From Desulfobacterales bacterium (GTDB taxonomy: Bacteria > Desulfobacterota > Desulfobacteria > Desulfobacterales > Desulfosalsimonadaceae): a DNA stretch of 64,000 nucleotides. The stretch is from contig JAXHNP010000006.1 of NCBI GenBank assembly GCA_034520365.1, positions 241,001 through 305,000 on the forward strand, given 5' to 3'. The notes beneath the pieces are model-generated. The model had not been told where the DNA came from, made no database searches, and saw only the letters and a program-made list of their open reading frames with translations. The translations under genes and the position numbers were made by a program. Positions 16,845-23,901 of the stretch are shown piece after piece (position 1 is the first letter of the stretch; every line of letters starts with the position of its first letter).

Positions 16845-18293
16845 TTATTGGCTGCCCAGGCGTTTGGCCAGAATTTCTTTGAGAAGCTTGGGATTGGCTT
16901 TTCCCTGGGAGGCTTTCATGGCCAGGCCCATGAAAAAGCCGAGCACCTTGGCGTTGCCGTTTTTGTAATCCGCCACGTCATCGGGGTGTTCGGCCAGAAT
17001 GGCATCAACGATATCCTCCAGTTTGTCTGCATCCGAGACCTGTTCAAACCCGCCCTCGGAGATGATCTGCTCGGGCGGGGCGTCTTTGTCTATCATCCGG
17101 GCCAAAACTTCCCGGGCGGCGCCTGTATTGATCTTTTCCTGATCAAGCAGCCCAAGCAGGCCGGCAAACCGTTCGGCGTTCAGGCAGGTGTCTATAAGGC
17201 TCTGGCCGCGATCCTTAAGCGCAGGCAGCAAATGACCGGCAATCCAGTTGGCGGCTTTTCGCGGGGCTCTCTCCTGCTGCACCGCGGCTTCAAAAAATTC
17301 GGCGATCTCCCGCTCCTGGCTCATGGCAAATGCCTCGGCAGCGGGCAGATCGTAATCGGCCATGAACCGGTCGGCTTTTTGGGCCGGCATTTCCGGAAGC
17401 CTCTCTTGAATAGTCTCCAGCCATGCCTGATCCATTCGGATGGCCGGTACGGAAGGGTCCGGCACGCAGGGGCCGGCAAATTTTTCCCGCATGGGTGTCG
17501 TGGCCCGCTTGTCCGGGTCCCACAGCCGGGTGTGCAGGGTGACGGGTTCGCCCCGTTCCAGGCCCTCGGCCTGGCGTTGGATCTCATGGCTGATAGCATC
17601 GCCCACGTGGTGGATGGAATTCATGTTTTTGACCTCCACCTTGGTGTTAAATTTGTCGCTGCCTGCCGCTCGCAGGGAAATATTGGCATCCGCCCGCATG
17701 GTACCCTGTTCCATGCTGCACTCCGTGGCGCCCGTGTAGCGAAGCTTTGTGCGAAGGGATTTTAAAAACTCCATGGCCTCATAAGGGTTTCGCATGTCCG
17801 GTTCAGTGACGATTTCGATAAGCGGCGCCCCGGCCCGGTTGAAATCCACCAGGCTGACGGGTGTTCTCCCCTCGGTTTCATGGACCAGCCGGGCCACATC
17901 CTCTTCCATATGGATGTGATGGATGCCAAGCCGCCGCGTATTGCCGTTTTCCCCGATAATGTCGATCCAGCCGTTTACCGCCAGGGGTTTGTGGTGCTGG
18001 GAGAGCTGGAACCCCTTGGGCAGATCCGGGTAATAGTAGACTTTCTGGTCAAAGGCGCTTTCCTCGGAAATGGTGCAGTTGGCGGCCAGACATCCCAGCA
18101 CGGCCTTTTCAACAGCCTGCCGGCTGAGCCGTGGCTGGGCGCCGGGTAGCCAGAGGCAGACCGGGCAGGTGTTTCGGTTGGGCGCTTCCCCGGGCTGGTT
18201 GGGGCAGTCGCAGAAGAGCTTTGTGGCGGCATTTAACTGCACATGGATTTCAAGACCGATGACCGCTTCGTATTTGGACGTATCAGGCGTCAT
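16845..18293 (-). CDS. gatB: Asp-tRNA(Asn)/Glu-tRNA(Gln) amidotransferase subunit B
   Basis: Full length at 482 residues. The cradle domain opens with YEAVIGLEIHVQLNAATKLF. The zinc-site cysteines are present (CDCPNQPGEAPNRNTCPVC), as are KGFQLSQHHKPLA, HIHMEEDVARLVHE, VDFNRAGAPLIEIVTEPD and the ECSMEQGTMRADANISLR stretch. The C-terminal helical and YqeY-like tail ends in NPKLLKEILAKRL. GatB activates the misacylated Asp or Glu on tRNA by phosphorylation and then amidates it with ammonia channelled from GatA. Its start overlaps the upstream GatA-like gene by 4 bases. All recognisable GatB features are intact, in contrast to its GatA neighbour. Confidence 0.95.
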   Translation of the reverse strand: MTPDTSKYEAVIGLEIHVQLNAATKLFCDCPNQPGEAPNRNTCPVCLWLPGAQPRLSRQAVEKAVLGCLAANCTISEESAFDQKVYYYPDLPKGFQLSQHHKPLAVNGWIDIIGENGNTRRLGIHHIHMEEDVARLVHETEGRTPVSLVDFNRAGAPLIEIVTEPDMRNPYEAMEFLKSLRTKLRYTGATECSMEQGTMRADANISLRAAGSDKFNTKVEVKNMNSIHHVGDAISHEIQRQAEGLERGEPVTLHTRLWDPDKRATTPMREKFAGPCVPDPSVPAIRMDQAWLETIQERLPEMPAQKADRFMADYDLPAAEAFAMSQEREIAEFFEAAVQQERAPRKAANWIAGHLLPALKDRGQSLIDTCLNAERFAGLLGLLDQEKINTGAAREVLARMIDKDAPPEQIISEGGFEQVSDADKLEDIVDAILAEHPDDVADYKNGNAKVLGFFMGLAMKASQGKANPKLLKEILAKRLGSQ

Positions 18294-19513
18294 TTGCTGC
18301 CGTCTCCTTTGATGCGCGCATTTATTTTAAGCCCGGCGGCCAGTACCTGGGCATCCGTCATGCGCGGGCCCACGAGCTGCAGGCCGAGATCGGTTTCACC
18401 GTCACGGACAAGGCCCGGCAGGCAAAGCGCGGGCAGTCCGGCCAGGCTGGCCGGCAGGGTCATTCCGAAGGCCGCGTAGGTTTCTTCGATGGATTCGGCT
18501 CCGCAGGGGTCGGCATTGGACAGACGCGCGGGCAGGGCCAGCAGATGGACGGATTCGAATGCCGCATCCAGACGGCTGACCAGTTTTTGCCGCAGGGCAC
18601 AGGCATTTTCAAATGCCGGATAATTTTCAAACTGAAAATAGGCCCCCTGAAGCAGAAAGGCTTTGAGCCGGGCGCCGAACGCCTCCCCCCGGGTTTGAAG
18701 ATACATTTCATTCCAGTTTTGGGCATCCGCCGCCTGAAATCCATAGCGCACCCCGTCATATTTGCCGCAGGAAGACGAGGCTTCAACCGAAGCAATCACC
18801 TGGTGGGCGGCGGCAAATTCGTCAAAGCCCGGCAGGTCTATCTCTGTGATGTCAAATCCGGCCTGTTCTGCCTGTGAAAGTCCGGCGGAAAACGCATCCC
18901 GGGCGGAGGGGGATAGATCCTGTTCGATCTGCCCGGGAACGCCGATCCGGTTTGGCGCATGCGCAGAAAGCGCCGAGGGGGTCAGGTCCGGCGGCGGATC
19001 CGGGGCCATTGAAAAATCGTTTTCATCCGGACCGGCCGCTTCCGCCAGGGCCGCCGCGATGTCGGCCGGCGTTCGGGCCAGAAAGCCGGTGCATTCCATG
19101 GATGGCACCAGTCCCACCAGGCCGAATCGGGAAAGCAGGCCGTAAGACGGCTTGAATCCATACCAGCCGGCAAGACAGGCGGTCATGCGGGCTTCGCCCA
19201 GAAAATCGGTCACCAGCCCCAGGCTGCCATGTTCCGCGCCAAGGGCGGCTGGCATGGTGCTGCCGTTTATGCCGAACCCCAGCTCCGCCATGCGGGTGCT
19301 GCCTGAAAAGCAGGCGCCGGCGGATTTTAACCGGGCCACAGTGGTGGCCTCCATGACTGCATGAAAACCGGTCAATGCCTGGCTGCCGGCATCTGTCAGC
19401 CAGTCCCGGACGGATAGATCCGGCTGGATCAGCACCTTTTTGCCGGCCATTGCTCCGTCCCGGCATTCCTGCAGCTCGGATTCGGGTTGATAGGTAAAAA
19501 TCTCAGCGTTCAT
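18290..19513 (-). CDS. GatA-like protein lacking amidase catalytic residues
   Basis: The 407-residue protein aligns by eye with GatA over most of its length: ATTVARLKSAGACFSGSTRM, GWYGFKPSYGLLSRFGLVG, GKYDGVRYGFQA, MYLQTRGEAFGA, and PASLAGLPALCLPG with LGLQLVGP. It starts about 50 residues late. The catalytic lysine motif (GVPIAVKDN in active enzymes) reads GKKVLIQPD, putting Gln30 at the Lys position. The GGSSGGS loop with the cis-Ser is gone, with only NGS at 83-85 nearby. The nucleophile segment TGGSIR reads FLGEAR, placing Glu107 at the Ser. It should not hydrolyse glutamine. Tight coupling with AspRS-GatC (15 bp) and GatB (4-bp overlap) argues for a retained structural role. Whether a second, active GatA exists elsewhere is unknown. 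Confidence 0.85.
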   Translation of the reverse strand: MNAEIFTYQPESELQECRDGAMAGKKVLIQPDLSVRDWLTDAGSQALTGFHAVMEATTVARLKSAGACFSGSTRMAELGFGINGSTMPAALGAEHGSLGLVTDFLGEARMTACLAGWYGFKPSYGLLSRFGLVGLVPSMECTGFLARTPADIAAALAEAAGPDENDFSMAPDPPPDLTPSALSAHAPNRIGVPGQIEQDLSPSARDAFSAGLSQAEQAGFDITEIDLPGFDEFAAAHQVIASVEASSSCGKYDGVRYGFQAADAQNWNEMYLQTRGEAFGARLKAFLLQGAYFQFENYPAFENACALRQKLVSRLDAAFESVHLLALPARLSNADPCGAESIEETYAAFGMTLPASLAGLPALCLPGLVRDGETDLGLQLVGPRMTDAQVLAAGLKINARIKGDGSK

Positions 19514-19528
19514 AACTGTCCTTTTCTG

Positions 19529-21664
19529 CTATTCCAAAACCGATGCAACTTTGAAATATCCGCCTTTCACCGCGGCGGCATTTTTAGATAAATCCCCGGA
19601 TTCCGACAGCTCGCTGACCCTGGCCGCGGTGCCGTCACGAAACCGGTTGGCCGCCGGTATCACGGAAAACAAAGGAGGCTCGGGGCTCTCGGTATTTTCC
19701 GCCGCCGCTGCCCGGCTGACTTTTTCGGCCAGGGCTTTGGCCTGTTCAAGGACTGCCCGCATGGGTTCGCGTTCCGCGTCCGAAATGGCGATACGCGAGA
19801 CCCAGGATAAGGAATCCAAAAGGTCCTTTTGATCCCGGGCCCTCGAAAATGTTGGGCCGCCCTTGATATCGAGCAGTTCAAGCTCGGCCAGCTGCTCCTG
19901 TGAAACCTGTGACGGAGCCTGGGTCAGGGGGCAGTAAGCGCTGCGATTTTTGGGAAAGGCGATGACCTCACGGATGGAGGGGGCAGAGAGGATCATGGCC
20001 GCCACCCGGTCAAGGCCCAGCGCCATGCCGCCATGGGGCGGGGCCCCGTATTCCAGGGCCTGAAGGAAAAAACCGAATTTTTCCGCCACGTCCGCTTCCC
20101 CCAGGCCCAGGGCCTGAAAAATTTTATCCTGCAGGCCCCGGTCATTGATACGAATGCTGCCGCCGCCGAGTTCCTCTCCGTTTACCACCAGGTCATAGGC
20201 CCGGGATTTAAGATCCAGGAGCGCATCTTCATCCTCAGGATCAAAGTCGGTGCGATCCGGCATGGTAAAGGGGTGGTGGCTGGATGTAACACCTGTATCC
20301 GCGGGTTCAAACAAAGGAAAATCCGTCACCCACAAAGGCTTGTACGCCTCTGCTGGAATCAGGTCCAGCCGGTTGGCCAGGTGAAGGCGAAGCTGGCCCA
20401 GGGCGCTACAGACCAGGTGCCAGGACGGATCCGCGATCATCAGGATCACATCGCCGGTTTCAGCCCCGAACCGCTTTAAAACCGCCTCCTGTTCCTTTTT
20501 GCTGAAAAACTGGACAATGTTGCTGTCCAGACCGGCCTCCGTCACGCGCATCCAGGTCATGCCCCGGGCGCCGAAACCGGGCACGATGTCCTTGGCATAT
20601 TCGTTCTGCAGAATGTTTTTGCTCAAGGCCCCGGACTGGCCCTTGACATTGATCCCCTTGATGCAGCCGCCCCGGTCCAGAATCTGCCTGAAAATGGCAT
20701 AGTTCGTATCCGTAAAGATATCCGTGGCATCTACAAAGGTCATGCCGAAGCGAAGGTCGGGCCGGTCTGAACCCGCGGTGTTCATGGCGTCGGTCCAGGT
20801 CATGCGGGGAAACGGCCGGGGCAGGTCAATGCCGCCCACGGAAAACATCCGCGACACCAGCTCTTCGAAAACCCGGTAAATAAATTCTTCGTCAATAAAT
20901 GCGGCTTCCAGGTCGAGCTGGGTGAATTCGGGCTGGCGATTCGGGCGCAGGTCCTCGTCCCGGAAACACCGGACGATCTGGTAATAGCGCTCCACTCCGC
21001 CCACCATGAGCAGCTGCTTGAACAGCTGGGGCGACTGGGGCAGGGCATAAAAGCTGCGGGGGTGATGGCGGCTGGGCACGATATAGTCCCGGGCCCCTTC
21101 AGGCGTGCTGCGGGTCAGCATGGGGGTTTCCACCTCGATAAACCCCTCTTCATCCAGAAAATTGCGGATGGTCCGGGAAATGGCATGCCGCTTGATGAGA
21201 TGATCCTGCATGGACGGCCGCCTCAGGTCCAGGTAGCGGTATTGGAGTCTTAAATCCTCGGTAACCGATTGATCCTGGCGAACCGGCACCCCGGCCAGCA
21301 TGGATTTTTCCGATATGGGAAAGGGCGGGGTTTTTGACCGGCTCAAAATCTTCAAGTCCGATGCGCTCACCTCCACATCGCCCGTCGCAATATGGGGGTT
21401 TTCCGTGCCCACGGCCCGGCGCACCACCTGCCCGGTAATGCGAACGCAGAACTCGTTTCTCAGGTGCTCGGCCTGCTGGCAGACGGCTTTGTCCGTGGAT
21501 TCAGGGCTGAACACCACCTGTACGATGCCGCTCTGGTCGCGCAGGTGGATGAAAAGCACCTCGCCATGATCCCGCAGGGCGTCCACCCAGCCGGCGAGCA
21601 TCACCTGCCGGCCGATATGGGCGGTACCCATGCGCCCGCACATGGATCGATCAGGGGACGTCAT
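19529..21664 (-). CDS. aspS-gatC: Aspartyl-tRNA synthetase fused to GatC
   Basis: Residues 1 to about 600 are a complete bacterial AspRS. They comprise the OB anticodon domain (HIGRQVMLAGWVDALRDHGE), motif 1/2 region FIEVETPMLTRSTPEGARDY, YYQIVRCFRDEDLR, a GAD insert domain, and motif 3 GGMALGLDRVAAMI. Normal AspRS stops near residue 590. Here about 100 more residues follow that match GatC: LDSLSWVSRIAISDAEREPM (about 616-635) and, at the end, NRFRDGTAARVSELS and KNAAAVKGGYFKVASVLE. A tethered GatC would hold the amidotransferase on the synthetase that makes Asp-tRNA(Asn). This suggests a non-discriminating AspRS and a built-in transamidosome. The start at 21664 has an AGGAAA upstream. Confidence 0.9.
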   Translation of the reverse strand: MTSPDRSMCGRMGTAHIGRQVMLAGWVDALRDHGEVLFIHLRDQSGIVQVVFSPESTDKAVCQQAEHLRNEFCVRITGQVVRRAVGTENPHIATGDVEVSASDLKILSRSKTPPFPISEKSMLAGVPVRQDQSVTEDLRLQYRYLDLRRPSMQDHLIKRHAISRTIRNFLDEEGFIEVETPMLTRSTPEGARDYIVPSRHHPRSFYALPQSPQLFKQLLMVGGVERYYQIVRCFRDEDLRPNRQPEFTQLDLEAAFIDEEFIYRVFEELVSRMFSVGGIDLPRPFPRMTWTDAMNTAGSDRPDLRFGMTFVDATDIFTDTNYAIFRQILDRGGCIKGINVKGQSGALSKNILQNEYAKDIVPGFGARGMTWMRVTEAGLDSNIVQFFSKKEQEAVLKRFGAETGDVILMIADPSWHLVCSALGQLRLHLANRLDLIPAEAYKPLWVTDFPLFEPADTGVTSSHHPFTMPDRTDFDPEDEDALLDLKSRAYDLVVNGEELGGGSIRINDRGLQDKIFQALGLGEADVAEKFGFFLQALEYGAPPHGGMALGLDRVAAMILSAPSIREVIAFPKNRSAYCPLTQAPSQVSQEQLAELELLDIKGGPTFSRARDQKDLLDSLSWVSRIAISDAEREPMRAVLEQAKALAEKVSRAAAAENTESPEPPLFSVIPAANRFRDGTAARVSELSESGDLSKNAAAVKGGYFKVASVLE

Positions 21665-21779
21665 ATTTGTGTGTTTCCTTTTAATTAAAAATGTTAATAA
21701 TATAGGATTTATGTTTCATAAGCCCTTACCGGATTTTAGGGCGGGTTTAAAGAGATTTTTTATTTCCAAGTTTTTCTGG

Positions 21780-22697
21780 ATGCATATGCCACATACCGAC
21801 AGCCCCAACAAAAAGGCCACCCGGCTTCCGCCGCGTCTGAAAGGGCTTATGATGACGCTTGGCGGGGCATTCTGCTTTTCGCTGATACCGATATGGGTCC
21901 GCTCCATTGATGCCTACTCCTCCATGAGCATCGCCTTCTACCGCGCCTTGTTCGGCATACTGTTTTTGTTTTTCTGGATCCTTCGCCGGCACGGCGGGGT
22001 AGAATCCCTTGATTTGCGAAAGCTGGAGCGCAGGCATCTGTTCGTGCTGTTTTGTGTGGGAGTTTCCATGTGCATCACCCCGGTCACCTACTATCTGGCC
22101 ATTATGAAGATCTCCGTTGCCAAAGCGGTGCTGCTTCATTACACGGCGCCGATCCATGTGGCGATTTTAAGCCCCTTTATCCTCAAGGAAAAAAATACGC
22201 CCCTGACCTGGTTTGCAGTAGCTGCGGGGTTATTGGGCACGGCGCTTATCACGGAACCGGCGGGTTTGCTGCAAGGAGATCCGGGTGAGCTGTTGGGCAT
22301 TGCAAGTGCGCTGGTATCGGGCATCGGCCTTGCCGGGGTGTTTATGTTCGGAAGGTTTCTGGCCGGCCATCTTCCCGCCCAGACCCGGGCTCTCTGGGGA
22401 TGCGTCATCGTGACGATTCTTCTGCTGCCGTTCGGGATTTTGATTCCTCCCGGATATTTCTGGCAAAACCTGCCGTTTCTGTTTCTGCTCGGCACGGTTT
22501 CCCTGGCAATCCCCTACACCCTTTTTTTTAAGGGCGCCAATTACATCACCGCCCAGGCCGGCTCTATCGTGGCGCTGTTTGAACCGGTCTGCGGCATTTT
22601 AATCGGCCTCCTGCTTTTTGGCGAGCGCCTGAGCCCGACGGGATGTTTAGGCGCCGGCATAGTGCTGCTGAGCATCTATATCGCCAGCCGGAAATAA
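21780..22697 (+). CDS. EamA/DMT-family inner-membrane transporter
   Basis: From ATG 21780 the protein has 305 residues and ten predicted membrane helices in two EamA repeats. The first begins GLMMTLGGAFCFSLIPIWVR, and the second begins LGIASALVSGIGLAGVFMFG and ends with FEPVCGILIGLLLFGERLS. The longer open frame from 21630 would overlap aspS and add a poorly supported leader, so I rejected it. Members export amino acids, nucleotides or other metabolites; the substrate here cannot be predicted. It is transcribed convergently with the cysteine desulfurase downstream, with the palindrome at 22702-22776 between them. Confidence 0.85.
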   Translation: MHMPHTDSPNKKATRLPPRLKGLMMTLGGAFCFSLIPIWVRSIDAYSSMSIAFYRALFGILFLFFWILRRHGGVESLDLRKLERRHLFVLFCVGVSMCITPVTYYLAIMKISVAKAVLLHYTAPIHVAILSPFILKEKNTPLTWFAVAAGLLGTALITEPAGLLQGDPGELLGIASALVSGIGLAGVFMFGRFLAGHLPAQTRALWGCVIVTILLLPFGILIPPGYFWQNLPFLFLLGTVSLAIPYTLFFKGANYITAQAGSIVALFEPVCGILIGLLLFGERLSPTGCLGAGIVLLSIYIASRK

Positions 22698-22701
22698 GAA
22701 A

Positions 22702-22776
22702 TAGGGGTCAAATCTTTAATCTTGACAATTTGAGGATATGGCCGACAAATTGTCAAGATTAAAGATTTGACCCCTA
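22702..22776. repeat. Perfect 31-bp palindrome (REP/MITE-like) derived from a RAYT 3' end
   Basis: Arms at 22702-22732 and 22746-22776 are exact reverse complements with a 13-base loop. Read on the minus strand from the right arm, the first 50 bases (starting GGGGTCAAATC) match 63630-63679 with three mismatches; that stretch is the 3' end of the RAYT gene at the right edge. The palindrome begins 5 bp after the EamA stop and contains the stop codon of the desulfurase gene, so it fills the whole convergent intergenic space and could act as a bidirectional terminator. Confidence 0.9.
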
Positions 22777-23901
22777 AGACCCGGCCGCCGTGATTATTTC
22801 GGCTGCCCGGGCGACTTCGGCTTCGGTGCTCATGCGGCCGGTGCTCAGGCGAAGCGTGCCCTTGGCCCATTTTGCATCCAGACCCATTGCCGAAAGCACA
22901 TGGGAGACAGAAACCGTGTCCGCATGGCAGGCCGCGCCCGCGGAGGCCGCTACTTGATCCTTTATTTCATCGAGTATCCTGTTGGCCGCCAGCTCGTAAA
23001 ATGAGATGCTTAGCGTGTTGGGCAGTCTGTGCTCAGGGTGGCCGTTTATTTTTGCATCAGAGATTTCGGTGGAAATTTCTGCTTCCAGCCGGTCGCGCAG
23101 GTTCTGCATATGGGTGAAGTTCTTGTCAAAATCTCTTTCTGCGATCTCGCAGGCCTTGCCCAGGCCGGCGATCATTGAAACATTTTCCGTGCCCGCCCGG
23201 CGGCCGCCTTCCTGACCCGCGCCGTGACAGAAAGGCTCAAGATGCAGGCCGCTTTTAATGTAGAGGGCGCCGATGCCTTTGGGGGCATAGAGCTTGTGGC
23301 CGGCAATGCTTAAAAGCGACAGGCCGGAAATATCGGTTGTCGTCCGGATCTTTCCAGCGGACTGGGCGGCGTCTGTGTGCATGAGAATGCCGTGTGTTTC
23401 CGCAATGCCGGCGATTTCCGTTATGGGCTGGACGGTGCCGACTTCGTTGTTTGAGTGCATGATGGAGATAAGGATCGTGTCCGGCCGGATTTCGGATTCA
23501 AGCATGCCGGCAGAGACCCGGCCGGTTTCGTCCACCGGCAGGTAAGTGGCCTCAAATCCCTGCCTTTCAAGAAAGCGGAAAACCTCGAGCACAGCGGGAT
23601 GTTCAATCTGCGAGGTAATTATATGTTTGCCCCGGTCTGCGCGCAGCATGGCCGCGCTTTTTATGGCGTGGTTGTTTGCCTCTGTGCCGCCTGAGGTAAA
23701 GATAATTTCTTCCGGCTTGCAGCCCAGAAGTTCCGCAACCCGGCGGCGGGCCGAATCAACCGCCCGCCGCGGGACATCCCCGAATGCGTGTGAGCTGGAC
23801 GGGTTGCCGAACTCTGTTTCAAGAAACGGCCGCATTGCCCCAAGGACTTCAGGGGCAAGGGGCGTGGTGGCGTTGTAATCGAGATAAATTGTCTGCGGCA
23901 T
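22774..23901 (-). CDS. Cysteine desulfurase (NifS/IscS family, PLP enzyme)
   Basis: The 375-residue aminotransferase-fold protein has YLDYNATTPLAPEVLGAM, GNPSSSHAFGD, FTSGGTEANNHAI, EHPAVLE, and HTDAAQSAGK. The PLP lysine lies in SIAGHKLYAPKGIGAL, and the catalytic cysteine in AASAGAACHADTVSVSHVL. It mobilises sulfur from cysteine for Fe-S, tRNA or other thiolation uses. It differs from the NifS at 33411-34586 (SSGSACTSG active loop) and may serve another acceptor. Its TAG stop lies inside the palindrome arm, so the element seems to have supplied the present C-terminus. Confidence 0.92.
   Translation of the reverse strand: MPQTIYLDYNATTPLAPEVLGAMRPFLETEFGNPSSSHAFGDVPRRAVDSARRRVAELLGCKPEEIIFTSGGTEANNHAIKSAAMLRADRGKHIITSQIEHPAVLEVFRFLERQGFEATYLPVDETGRVSAGMLESEIRPDTILISIMHSNNEVGTVQPITEIAGIAETHGILMHTDAAQSAGKIRTTTDISGLSLLSIAGHKLYAPKGIGALYIKSGLHLEPFCHGAGQEGGRRAGTENVSMIAGLGKACEIAERDFDKNFTHMQNLRDRLEAEISTEISDAKINGHPEHRLPNTLSISFYELAANRILDEIKDQVAASAGAACHADTVSVSHVLSAMGLDAKWAKGTLRLSTGRMSTEAEVARAAEIITAAGS

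Follow-up and report, generated by a model that had tools for sequence, protein, structure and literature searches.

A GatA homologue without its catalytic residues, encoded between an AspRS-GatC fusion and GatB in a Desulfobacterales bacterium

The locus

Three genes follow one another on the minus strand of a 64,000-nucleotide stretch of DNA from a Desulfobacterales bacterium (GenBank assembly GCA_034520365.1, contig JAXHNP010000006.1, positions 241,001 to 305,000), called here the window (G000:C6:241001-305000). The genome to which it belongs is 4.33 Mb in 8 contigs, with a completeness of 99.4%. The genes encode, in order, an aspartyl-tRNA synthetase (AspRS) fused to GatC, a GatA paralogue that I call pseudo-GatA, and a GatB that I call operon-type GatB. 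A gap of 15 bp separates the fusion from pseudo-GatA, and the stop of pseudo-GatA overlaps the start of GatB by 4 bp. In GatCAB, as described in the excerpt of PMC4027206 used here, a tunnel for ammonia connects a glutaminase with a kinase. It is the glutaminase that is in question at this locus, whose features are as follows (positions are those of the window).

19529 to 21664, minus strand: AspRS-GatC fusion gene, 711 aa; the AspRS part, of bacterial type, takes up about residues 1-600 and is followed by a GatC-like tail
19547 to 19786, minus strand: GatC-like tail of the fusion, residues 627-706 (Pfam GatC, PRK12820)
18290 to 19513, minus strand: pseudo-GatA, 407 aa, ATG start (Pfam, NCBIfam, alignment, AlphaFold2)
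19424 to 19426, minus strand: CAG codon for Gln30 of pseudo-GatA, which stands in place of the catalytic Lys (alignment column)
19247 to 19252, minus strand: approximate site at which the cis-Ser loop (GGSSGGS) is deleted from pseudo-GatA, about residues 88/89 (alignment)
19193 to 19195, minus strand: GAA codon for Glu107 of pseudo-GatA, which stands in place of the nucleophilic Ser (alignment column)
16845 to 18293, minus strand: operon-type GatB, 482 aa (NCBIfam gatB)

A GatA without the glutaminase active site

Pseudo-GatA scores 186.8 bits against the Pfam Amidase family (cut-off 27) and 224.9 bits against TIGR00132 gatA, far under that model's cut-off of 481.1. Judged by these profiles it is a true homologue of GatA and the amidase-signature enzymes. 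Its identity to the intact GatA encoded elsewhere in the same genome is 28% (114/407 aligned), and an alignment of the two shows what has been lost. Lys80 of the intact protein aligns with Gln30, the stretch of residues from about 142 to 160 that holds GGSSGGS is deleted, and the nucleophile Ser179 aligns with Glu107.

These are the three changes that the original prediction had read from the window alone, and all three recur in relatives. A scan of a collection of species genomes (84,980 species by its description) with a pattern derived from the alignment gave 373 stretches, the best 80 of which, together with the window's own protein, make up the set of 81 sequences considered here. The nucleophile column is Glu in 81/81 and the cis-Ser columns are gaps in 81/81. 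The Lys column holds Q in 70, R in 5, H in 4, and W and P in one each, with no Lys at all, so that each of the three members of the triad (Lys, cis-Ser and nucleophilic Ser) is kept in 0/81.

The loss extends to the substrate. In yeast GatA, according to the same excerpt of PMC4027206, the triad is S154-cisS130-K52 and glutamine is held by R334 and D418. By my own matching the last two correspond to the columns of canonical Arg360 and Asp427. In the pseudo-GatA set the first of these is Y, F or L in 81/81 and the second is F in 72/81 and Asp in none; were the neighbouring Arg359 column the proper match, it holds S, T or A in at least 70/81. The positions matched to glutamine binding are thus, as aligned, lost as well, and the view that this subunit is without the known machinery of a glutaminase holds throughout the set.

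One might suppose that pseudo-GatA remains a glutaminase or amidase by virtue of a new active site, based for example on Glu107. That residue and Glu77 are invariant, and Asp103 is nearly so. The idea must contend with the replacement of both matched glutamine-binding columns, and I know of no Glu-based enzyme in the amidase-signature family; I consider it very improbable. Nor is the old site to be found in a new place. An intact Ser-cisSer-Lys set elsewhere in the protein, which would have undone the prediction, was seen neither in the profile alignments, nor in the alignments with PDB entries, nor in the match of the AlphaFold2 model. A hidden triad is rejected on the grounds that the profile and PDB alignments are collinear through the whole protein and that the model follows GatA along most of the chain.

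What remains is still plainly a GatA. Compared with 30 canonical GatA from genomes that carry the module, pseudo-GatA shows 44 fixed differences, 27 of them deletions, concentrated in the N-terminal region and the region of the cis-Ser loop. Another 37 columns are conserved in both groups, including Asp103, Gly106 and Arg109 around the lost nucleophile; across the pseudo-GatA set Gly106 is invariant and Arg109 stands at 90% or more. The AlphaFold2 model, built from the 81-sequence alignment, has a mean pLDDT of 93.3. Its best matches in the PDB are GatA chains, with 3kfu_E of the transamidosome 3KFU at the top (TM-score 0.91 on the query), and it matches the GatA of 4WJ3 with a TM-score of 0.86. 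The model therefore predicts that the fold of GatA is kept. A search of viral folds gave no match at an E-value of 0.001 or better.

It is too much to suppose that such a protein is merely falling apart. The ratio of nonsynonymous to synonymous substitution rates (dN/dS, Nei-Gojobori) lies between 0.17 and 0.29 in nine pairs, the window against three relatives and six other pairs, and pseudo-GatA is under purifying selection. Relatives with the same substitutions under such selection had been named as the thing to look for. Because the same replacements occur in 81/81 and dN/dS is low, simple decay is ruled out for pseudo-GatA, as had been argued from its retention in an operon. What can be said for a decaying duplicate, or for an artefact of sequencing, concerns the neighbouring genes: in one genome (G064) stop codons interrupt the operon, and the AspRS of L058 and L078 and the GatB of L110 are spread over two reading frames, owing either to mutation or to an error of sequencing. 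The key changes, the selection and the open frames of pseudo-GatA across many assemblies tell against both ideas, which are hardly credible.

The fused AspRS and the operon-type GatB

The best NCBIfam model for the fusion is PRK12820, which scores 1184 bits over residues 1-711, below the model's cut-off of 1379. The tail by itself reaches 17.5 bits against Pfam GatC, under the cut-off of 23, and PRK12820 spans it; by this match the GatC subunit is present as the tail of AspRS. The AspRS part was compared in 65 sequences, the window's and those of 64 of the 80 loci, after a filter on length. Twelve positions of the class II motifs and the aspartate-binding site (Q210, S211, Q213, K216, R235, E237, D251, H463, H464, R505, D552 and R553), are invariant in 65/65. 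A His at the position of Pseudomonas aeruginosa His31 presumably marks a non-discriminating AspRS. It is found in 65/65 fused and in 28/28 standalone AspRS, does not separate the two types, and was set aside as a guide to specificity.

One genome (G175) that carries the fused operon has beside it a second AspRS of the fused clade without a GatC tail (L248:3252-5105, G175:C44), which matches PRK12820 with 1091 bits over the AspRS part only. By eye, its neighbours resemble an outer-membrane assembly protein and a superoxide dismutase.

The operon-type GatB scores 492 bits against NCBIfam gatB (cut-off 314.8). In 78 sequences (the window and 77 of the 80 loci, again after a length filter) E15, H17, E131, K84, K93 and the cysteines at 28, 30, 43 and 46 are kept in 78/78. 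The match to the Mg and ATP residues named in the excerpt of PMC4027206 is my own. The Lys and Cys residues are assigned the roles that they have in GatB at large. As far as the alignment can tell, the residues of the kinase/transamidase and of the zinc site are retained. The 78 proteins nevertheless form one group apart from 21 canonical GatB (FastTree support 100). Some of their fixed changes directly adjoin catalytic residues in the sequence (R to Q at 83, N to V at 85, AG to VA at 133-134), and the YRYFPDPD-type loop of canonical GatB has become PCVPDPS, with a deletion of three residues.

Those changes invite the thought that the activated Asp-tRNA is attacked by some nucleophile other than ammonia, or released, the product being another tRNA-linked or tRNA-derived compound. 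On the side of pseudo-GatA there are invariant residues of its own, Glu107, Trp267, Asn268 and Gln294, with Gln289 nearly so, and the genome already has a conventional set of enzymes. Set against this are the unchanged catalytic and Cys residues of the operon-type GatB and the absence of any conserved biosynthetic companion next to the operon. I hold the idea possible but unlikely, and its more specific form, that the rebuilt pocket with its invariant Glu feeds GatB an amine or small molecule to make a new aminoacyl-tRNA or tRNA-derived metabolite, somewhat less likely. If there is indeed such a nucleophile, it would amount to a second kind of chemistry by which amino acids are modified in a tRNA-dependent way.

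Distribution

A survey of 389 genomes of the class, 201 of them more complete, looked for the GatC-like tail of the fusion. It is present in 40/389 (the window's genome included) and in 25/201 of the more complete ones. The survey returned 30 loci, 29 of them with a pseudo-GatA stretch (the window's own included; L041 is cut). Pseudo-GatA lies downstream of the fusion in 29/30, with Glu at the nucleophile in 29/29; in the thirtieth the contig ends. A first alignment of pseudo-GatA had 27 rows from these loci, L024 and L028 (truncated) being left out. The genomes of the survey and the 80 loci of the pattern scan overlap (e.g. L016 and L045, whose contigs are both 62756 long) and so are not independent samples.

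In the 80 loci the gene order is much the same. The fused AspRS-GatC stands upstream of pseudo-GatA in 77/80, in two of them in two frames and in some cut at the 5' side by the end of a contig. The other three lie at contig ends: L066 and L090 start inside the GatC tail and L113 just before pseudo-GatA. L096 ends before GatB, and extra genes intervene between fusion and pseudo-GatA in L066 (two open reading frames) and L085 (about 1 kb). By record title, 43 of the loci are from Thermodesulfobacteriota, 16 from Myxococcota, 6 unranked, 3 each from Chloroflexota and Acidobacteriota, 2 each from Nitrospirota and Actinomycetota, and one each from five other phyla; most come from metagenome bins, which makes the labels uncertain, and the 16 Myxococcota are probably the records titled 'Deltaproteobacteria bacterium'. 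The operon's nearest named relatives are Desulfobacterales metagenome assemblies. Named strains have it too: Desulforhabdus sp. TSK, Desulfatitalea alkaliphila M08but and Desulfosarcina alkanivorans PL12, the last in a complete chromosome.

The conventional enzymes in the same genomes

A second intact GatA, AsnRS and GlnRS were to be looked for in the rest of the genome, and all are there. Besides the operon the genome encodes a canonical GatC-GatA (L001), GatB (L006), AspRS (L008), AsnRS (L011), GlnRS (L013) and GluRS (L014), all above curated cut-offs except the short GatC, which gave no match at the strict E-value used. Given this intact GatCAB and second AspRS, along with AsnRS, GlnRS and a pair of AsnB-like genes, the operon counts as an addition, a paralogous extra, and the notion that it is the cell's only amidotransferase falls.

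The same is broadly true of the 40 genomes that carry the fusion. Of these, 38 have AsnRS over the cut-off and 35 have canonical gatA over it, the latter being fragmentary in a further 3. Sorted by score, a canonical-type GatB is full in 30 and fragmentary in 2; sorted by score per column, a standalone AspRS is intact or nearly so in 29 and fragmentary in 6. In 8/40 assemblies the sorting by score left only the operon-type GatB, and 7 of these 8 have canonical gatA over the cut-off.

This last observation raises the prospect that the operon-type GatB amidates Asp-tRNA with ammonia taken not from solution but from a partner docked on pseudo-GatA, which could be a canonical GatA, another glutaminase or a deaminase. 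A glutaminase would usually be at hand, as the gatA counts show. Against the idea, no conserved partner gene lies beside the operon, the largest cluster of neighbours reaching 10/80 loci. The missing canonical gatB, moreover, may well have dropped out of draft genomes during assembly. Such a docked supply seems to me doubtful.

Five genomes with the fusion lack a standalone AspRS (G034, G057, G106, G286 and G327). Three of the five were among the 25 genomes of a pattern search for tRNA(Asn), and they are exactly the three without a match. The tRNA(Asn) gene adjoins standalone aspS in the window's genome (L219, C7:366427-368337), for which reason an assembly gap is the likely cause in those three; the two genes are adjacent in several relatives as well. 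A fourth genome, G128, has a standalone AspRS and matched only a tRNA-Ser in that search. G034 (C55, C72), although rated 100% complete, has canonical gatC-gatA and no match to a canonical GatB, a standalone AspRS or tRNA(Asn); this too is probably an assembly gap, as otherwise the operon-type GatB would have to serve the canonical GatA.

The tRNA(Asn) search gave 30 loci, six of which were not tRNA-like and were dropped. Of the 24 passed to ARAGORN, two tRNA-Ser loci, one locus without a gene and one duplicate were dropped, leaving 20 tRNA(Asn) genes that could be read. The U1-A72 pair, required for GatCAB according to passages of PMC4206432, is present in 20/20.

A genome so well supplied might use the operon for regulation rather than catalysis, the complex binding or sequestering tRNA or competing with the normal amidotransferase. 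The redundancy of AsnRS, GlnRS, AspRS and GatCAB in one genome suits this thought, as does the patchy presence of the operon in the class. Mere binding, though, would not need the key residues of AspRS and GatB, which are kept without exception, and I regard a regulatory complex as rather unlikely.

A proposed role

I propose that the three genes encode a dedicated Asp-tRNA(Asn) amidotransferase, with AspRS covalently tied to it through GatC and with pseudo-GatA as scaffold and ammonia port, not as glutaminase; I give this an even chance. The fused AspRS would charge tRNA(Asn) with Asp. The tethered GatB would receive the Asp-tRNA(Asn) and phosphorylate the side chain of Asp, and ammonia would attack the activated side chain to give Asn-tRNA. 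Pseudo-GatA, presumably unable to make ammonia from glutamine, would be the structural partner of GatB and the port by which ammonia enters; its invariant Glu107 might serve to bind ammonium, or else to keep the tunnel in the state usually brought on by glutamine.

Because the triad and the matched glutamine-binding positions are lost, the nitrogen could not come from glutamine by the known mechanism, and the machine probably runs on free ammonia or some other supply. Free ammonia would be the simplest nitrogen source for the operon-type GatB, by analogy with yeast GatFAB, where NH4Cl can replace glutamine in transamidation and where a truncation near the GatA site raised the use of ammonium (PMC4027206, excerpt). 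The operon would then be a glutamine-sparing route to Asn or Asn-tRNA, alongside a complete conventional set, in anaerobes that live with free ammonium.

In favor of the proposal I count the uniform losses in 81/81, the GatA fold and its best match in the GatA of a transamidosome (3KFU), the purifying selection, the gene order in 77/80, the AspRS positions in 65/65 and the GatB residues in 78/78. To these may be added a contrast in AsnB, which is absent (over the cut-off) from 10/25 module genomes that are at least 90% complete and from 1/11 without the module (Fisher two-sided p = 0.12).

A good deal weighs on the other side. That contrast is weak, by its p value and with all 11 controls from one family; within the window's family the counts are 2/7 and 1/11 (p = 0.53), and AsnB lends the supply of Asn as the operon's role weak support. 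The intact GatCAB and AspRS make such a role redundant, and the two AsnB-like genes count against it as well. According to the excerpt of PMC6523644, organisms with a non-discriminating AspRS and an amidotransferase are typically those in which AsnRS and/or Asn synthetase is missing; the window's genome, with AsnRS and AsnB-like genes, is contrary to that pattern. The U1-A72 pair proves little, occurring by my sum of Table 2 of PMC4206432 (excerpt) in 524/547 genera, nearly universal, and serves as a weak check of consistency only. The fused AspRS differs from 28 standalone AspRS at 33 near-fixed positions, and the operon-type GatB from the 21 canonical GatB at 28, so substrate or chemistry may differ. 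Finally, in G064, a genome in a single contig, an in-frame TAA splits the fused AspRS and a TGA lies in GatB, while pseudo-GatA is open (L038; G064:C1:1483436-1487537). This is an apparent loss in progress in one lineage, and the same genome shows no AsnB over the cut-off, so that Asn is made otherwise there.

As for the AsnB-like genes, one of those in the window's genome (L125, C7:818367-820064) is followed by a gene that by eye resembles NAD synthetase.

Comparison with known systems

All three subunits are homologous to those of the GatCAB Asp/Glu-tRNA amidotransferase (TIGR00132/TIGR00133), with the fold of GatA and the core of GatB kept. The operon departs from it in that pseudo-GatA has no triad, no cis-Ser loop and none of the matched glutamine-binding positions, in the fusion of GatC to AspRS, and in the near-fixed differences of GatB. 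The Asn transamidosomes of Thermus thermophilus (3KFU) and P. aeruginosa (4WJ3), in which AspRS and GatCAB form one body and whose GatA chains are the structural matches given above, are non-covalent, with active GatA. In the operon AspRS and GatC form a single chain, and pseudo-GatA is by its sequence inactive. I would class the operon, on what its genes predict, as a variant of GatCAB and the transamidosome that has the GatA fold and the hallmarks of GatB and lacks those of a glutaminase.

The fusion is already known by name in NCBIfam, where PRK12820 / NF009460 ('bifunctional aspartyl-tRNA synthetase/aspartyl/glutamyl-tRNA amidotransferase subunit C') covers its full length, though under the cut-off. 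The name covers the fusion alone and is silent on an inactive GatA. No account of a GatA without catalytic residues, or of this operon, was recognised in the open-licence PMC papers searched. There is a likeness by description in Clostridium acetobutylicum, which has an extra AspRS and an extra GatCAB beside AsnRS and makes Asn in a tRNA-dependent manner; the passages of PMC4206432 that describe it do not mention lost GatA catalysis. The extra AspRS genes given in those passages are from Deinococcus-Thermus, Actinobacteria and Clostridiaceae, the delta-proteobacterial fusion not being among them.

Human carbamoyl-phosphate synthetase 1 retains a glutaminase domain that has no nucleophile, and the enzyme uses free ammonia. 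The retention is the same as that seen here; fold and pathway are unrelated to those of pseudo-GatA.

A natural and widespread enzyme that has lost the glutaminase yet retains the glutaminase's body and partner would reveal what GatA does beyond making ammonia. If the proposal of an ammonia-fed amidotransferase is true, it would be the first natural tRNA amidotransferase known to me that uses only ammonia (or another donor), and it would bear on the question why certain anaerobes, already equipped with AsnRS and AsnB, retain one more possible route to Asn. AspRS-GatC would offer a ready single-polypeptide system for structural work. There is also a practical consequence. Pfam and NCBIfam score pseudo-GatA as a relative of amidases and GatA, and annotation by homology only could mislead metabolic reconstructions.

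Neighboring genes

The surroundings of the operon offer little by way of a clue. No family of neighbors is conserved in more than 10 of the 80 loci, and genomic context was set aside as a guide to function. Regulation by RNA was likewise set aside, scans of the window finding neither a tRNA gene nor any Rfam family that reached its gathering score. In 8/80 loci a cluster of hisF-like open reading frames, recognised by eye, lies near the operon at a median distance of 56 bp (e.g. L071:12740-13622). HisF also uses ammonia. The frames are four per strand and may include antisense frames or lineage background. In the window itself, upstream of the operon, lies an open reading frame that by eye resembles a NifS/IscS-type cysteine desulfurase (22774-23901, minus strand). 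Between it and the operon, on the other strand, is one for a DMT-type transporter (21630-22697), likewise recognised by eye.

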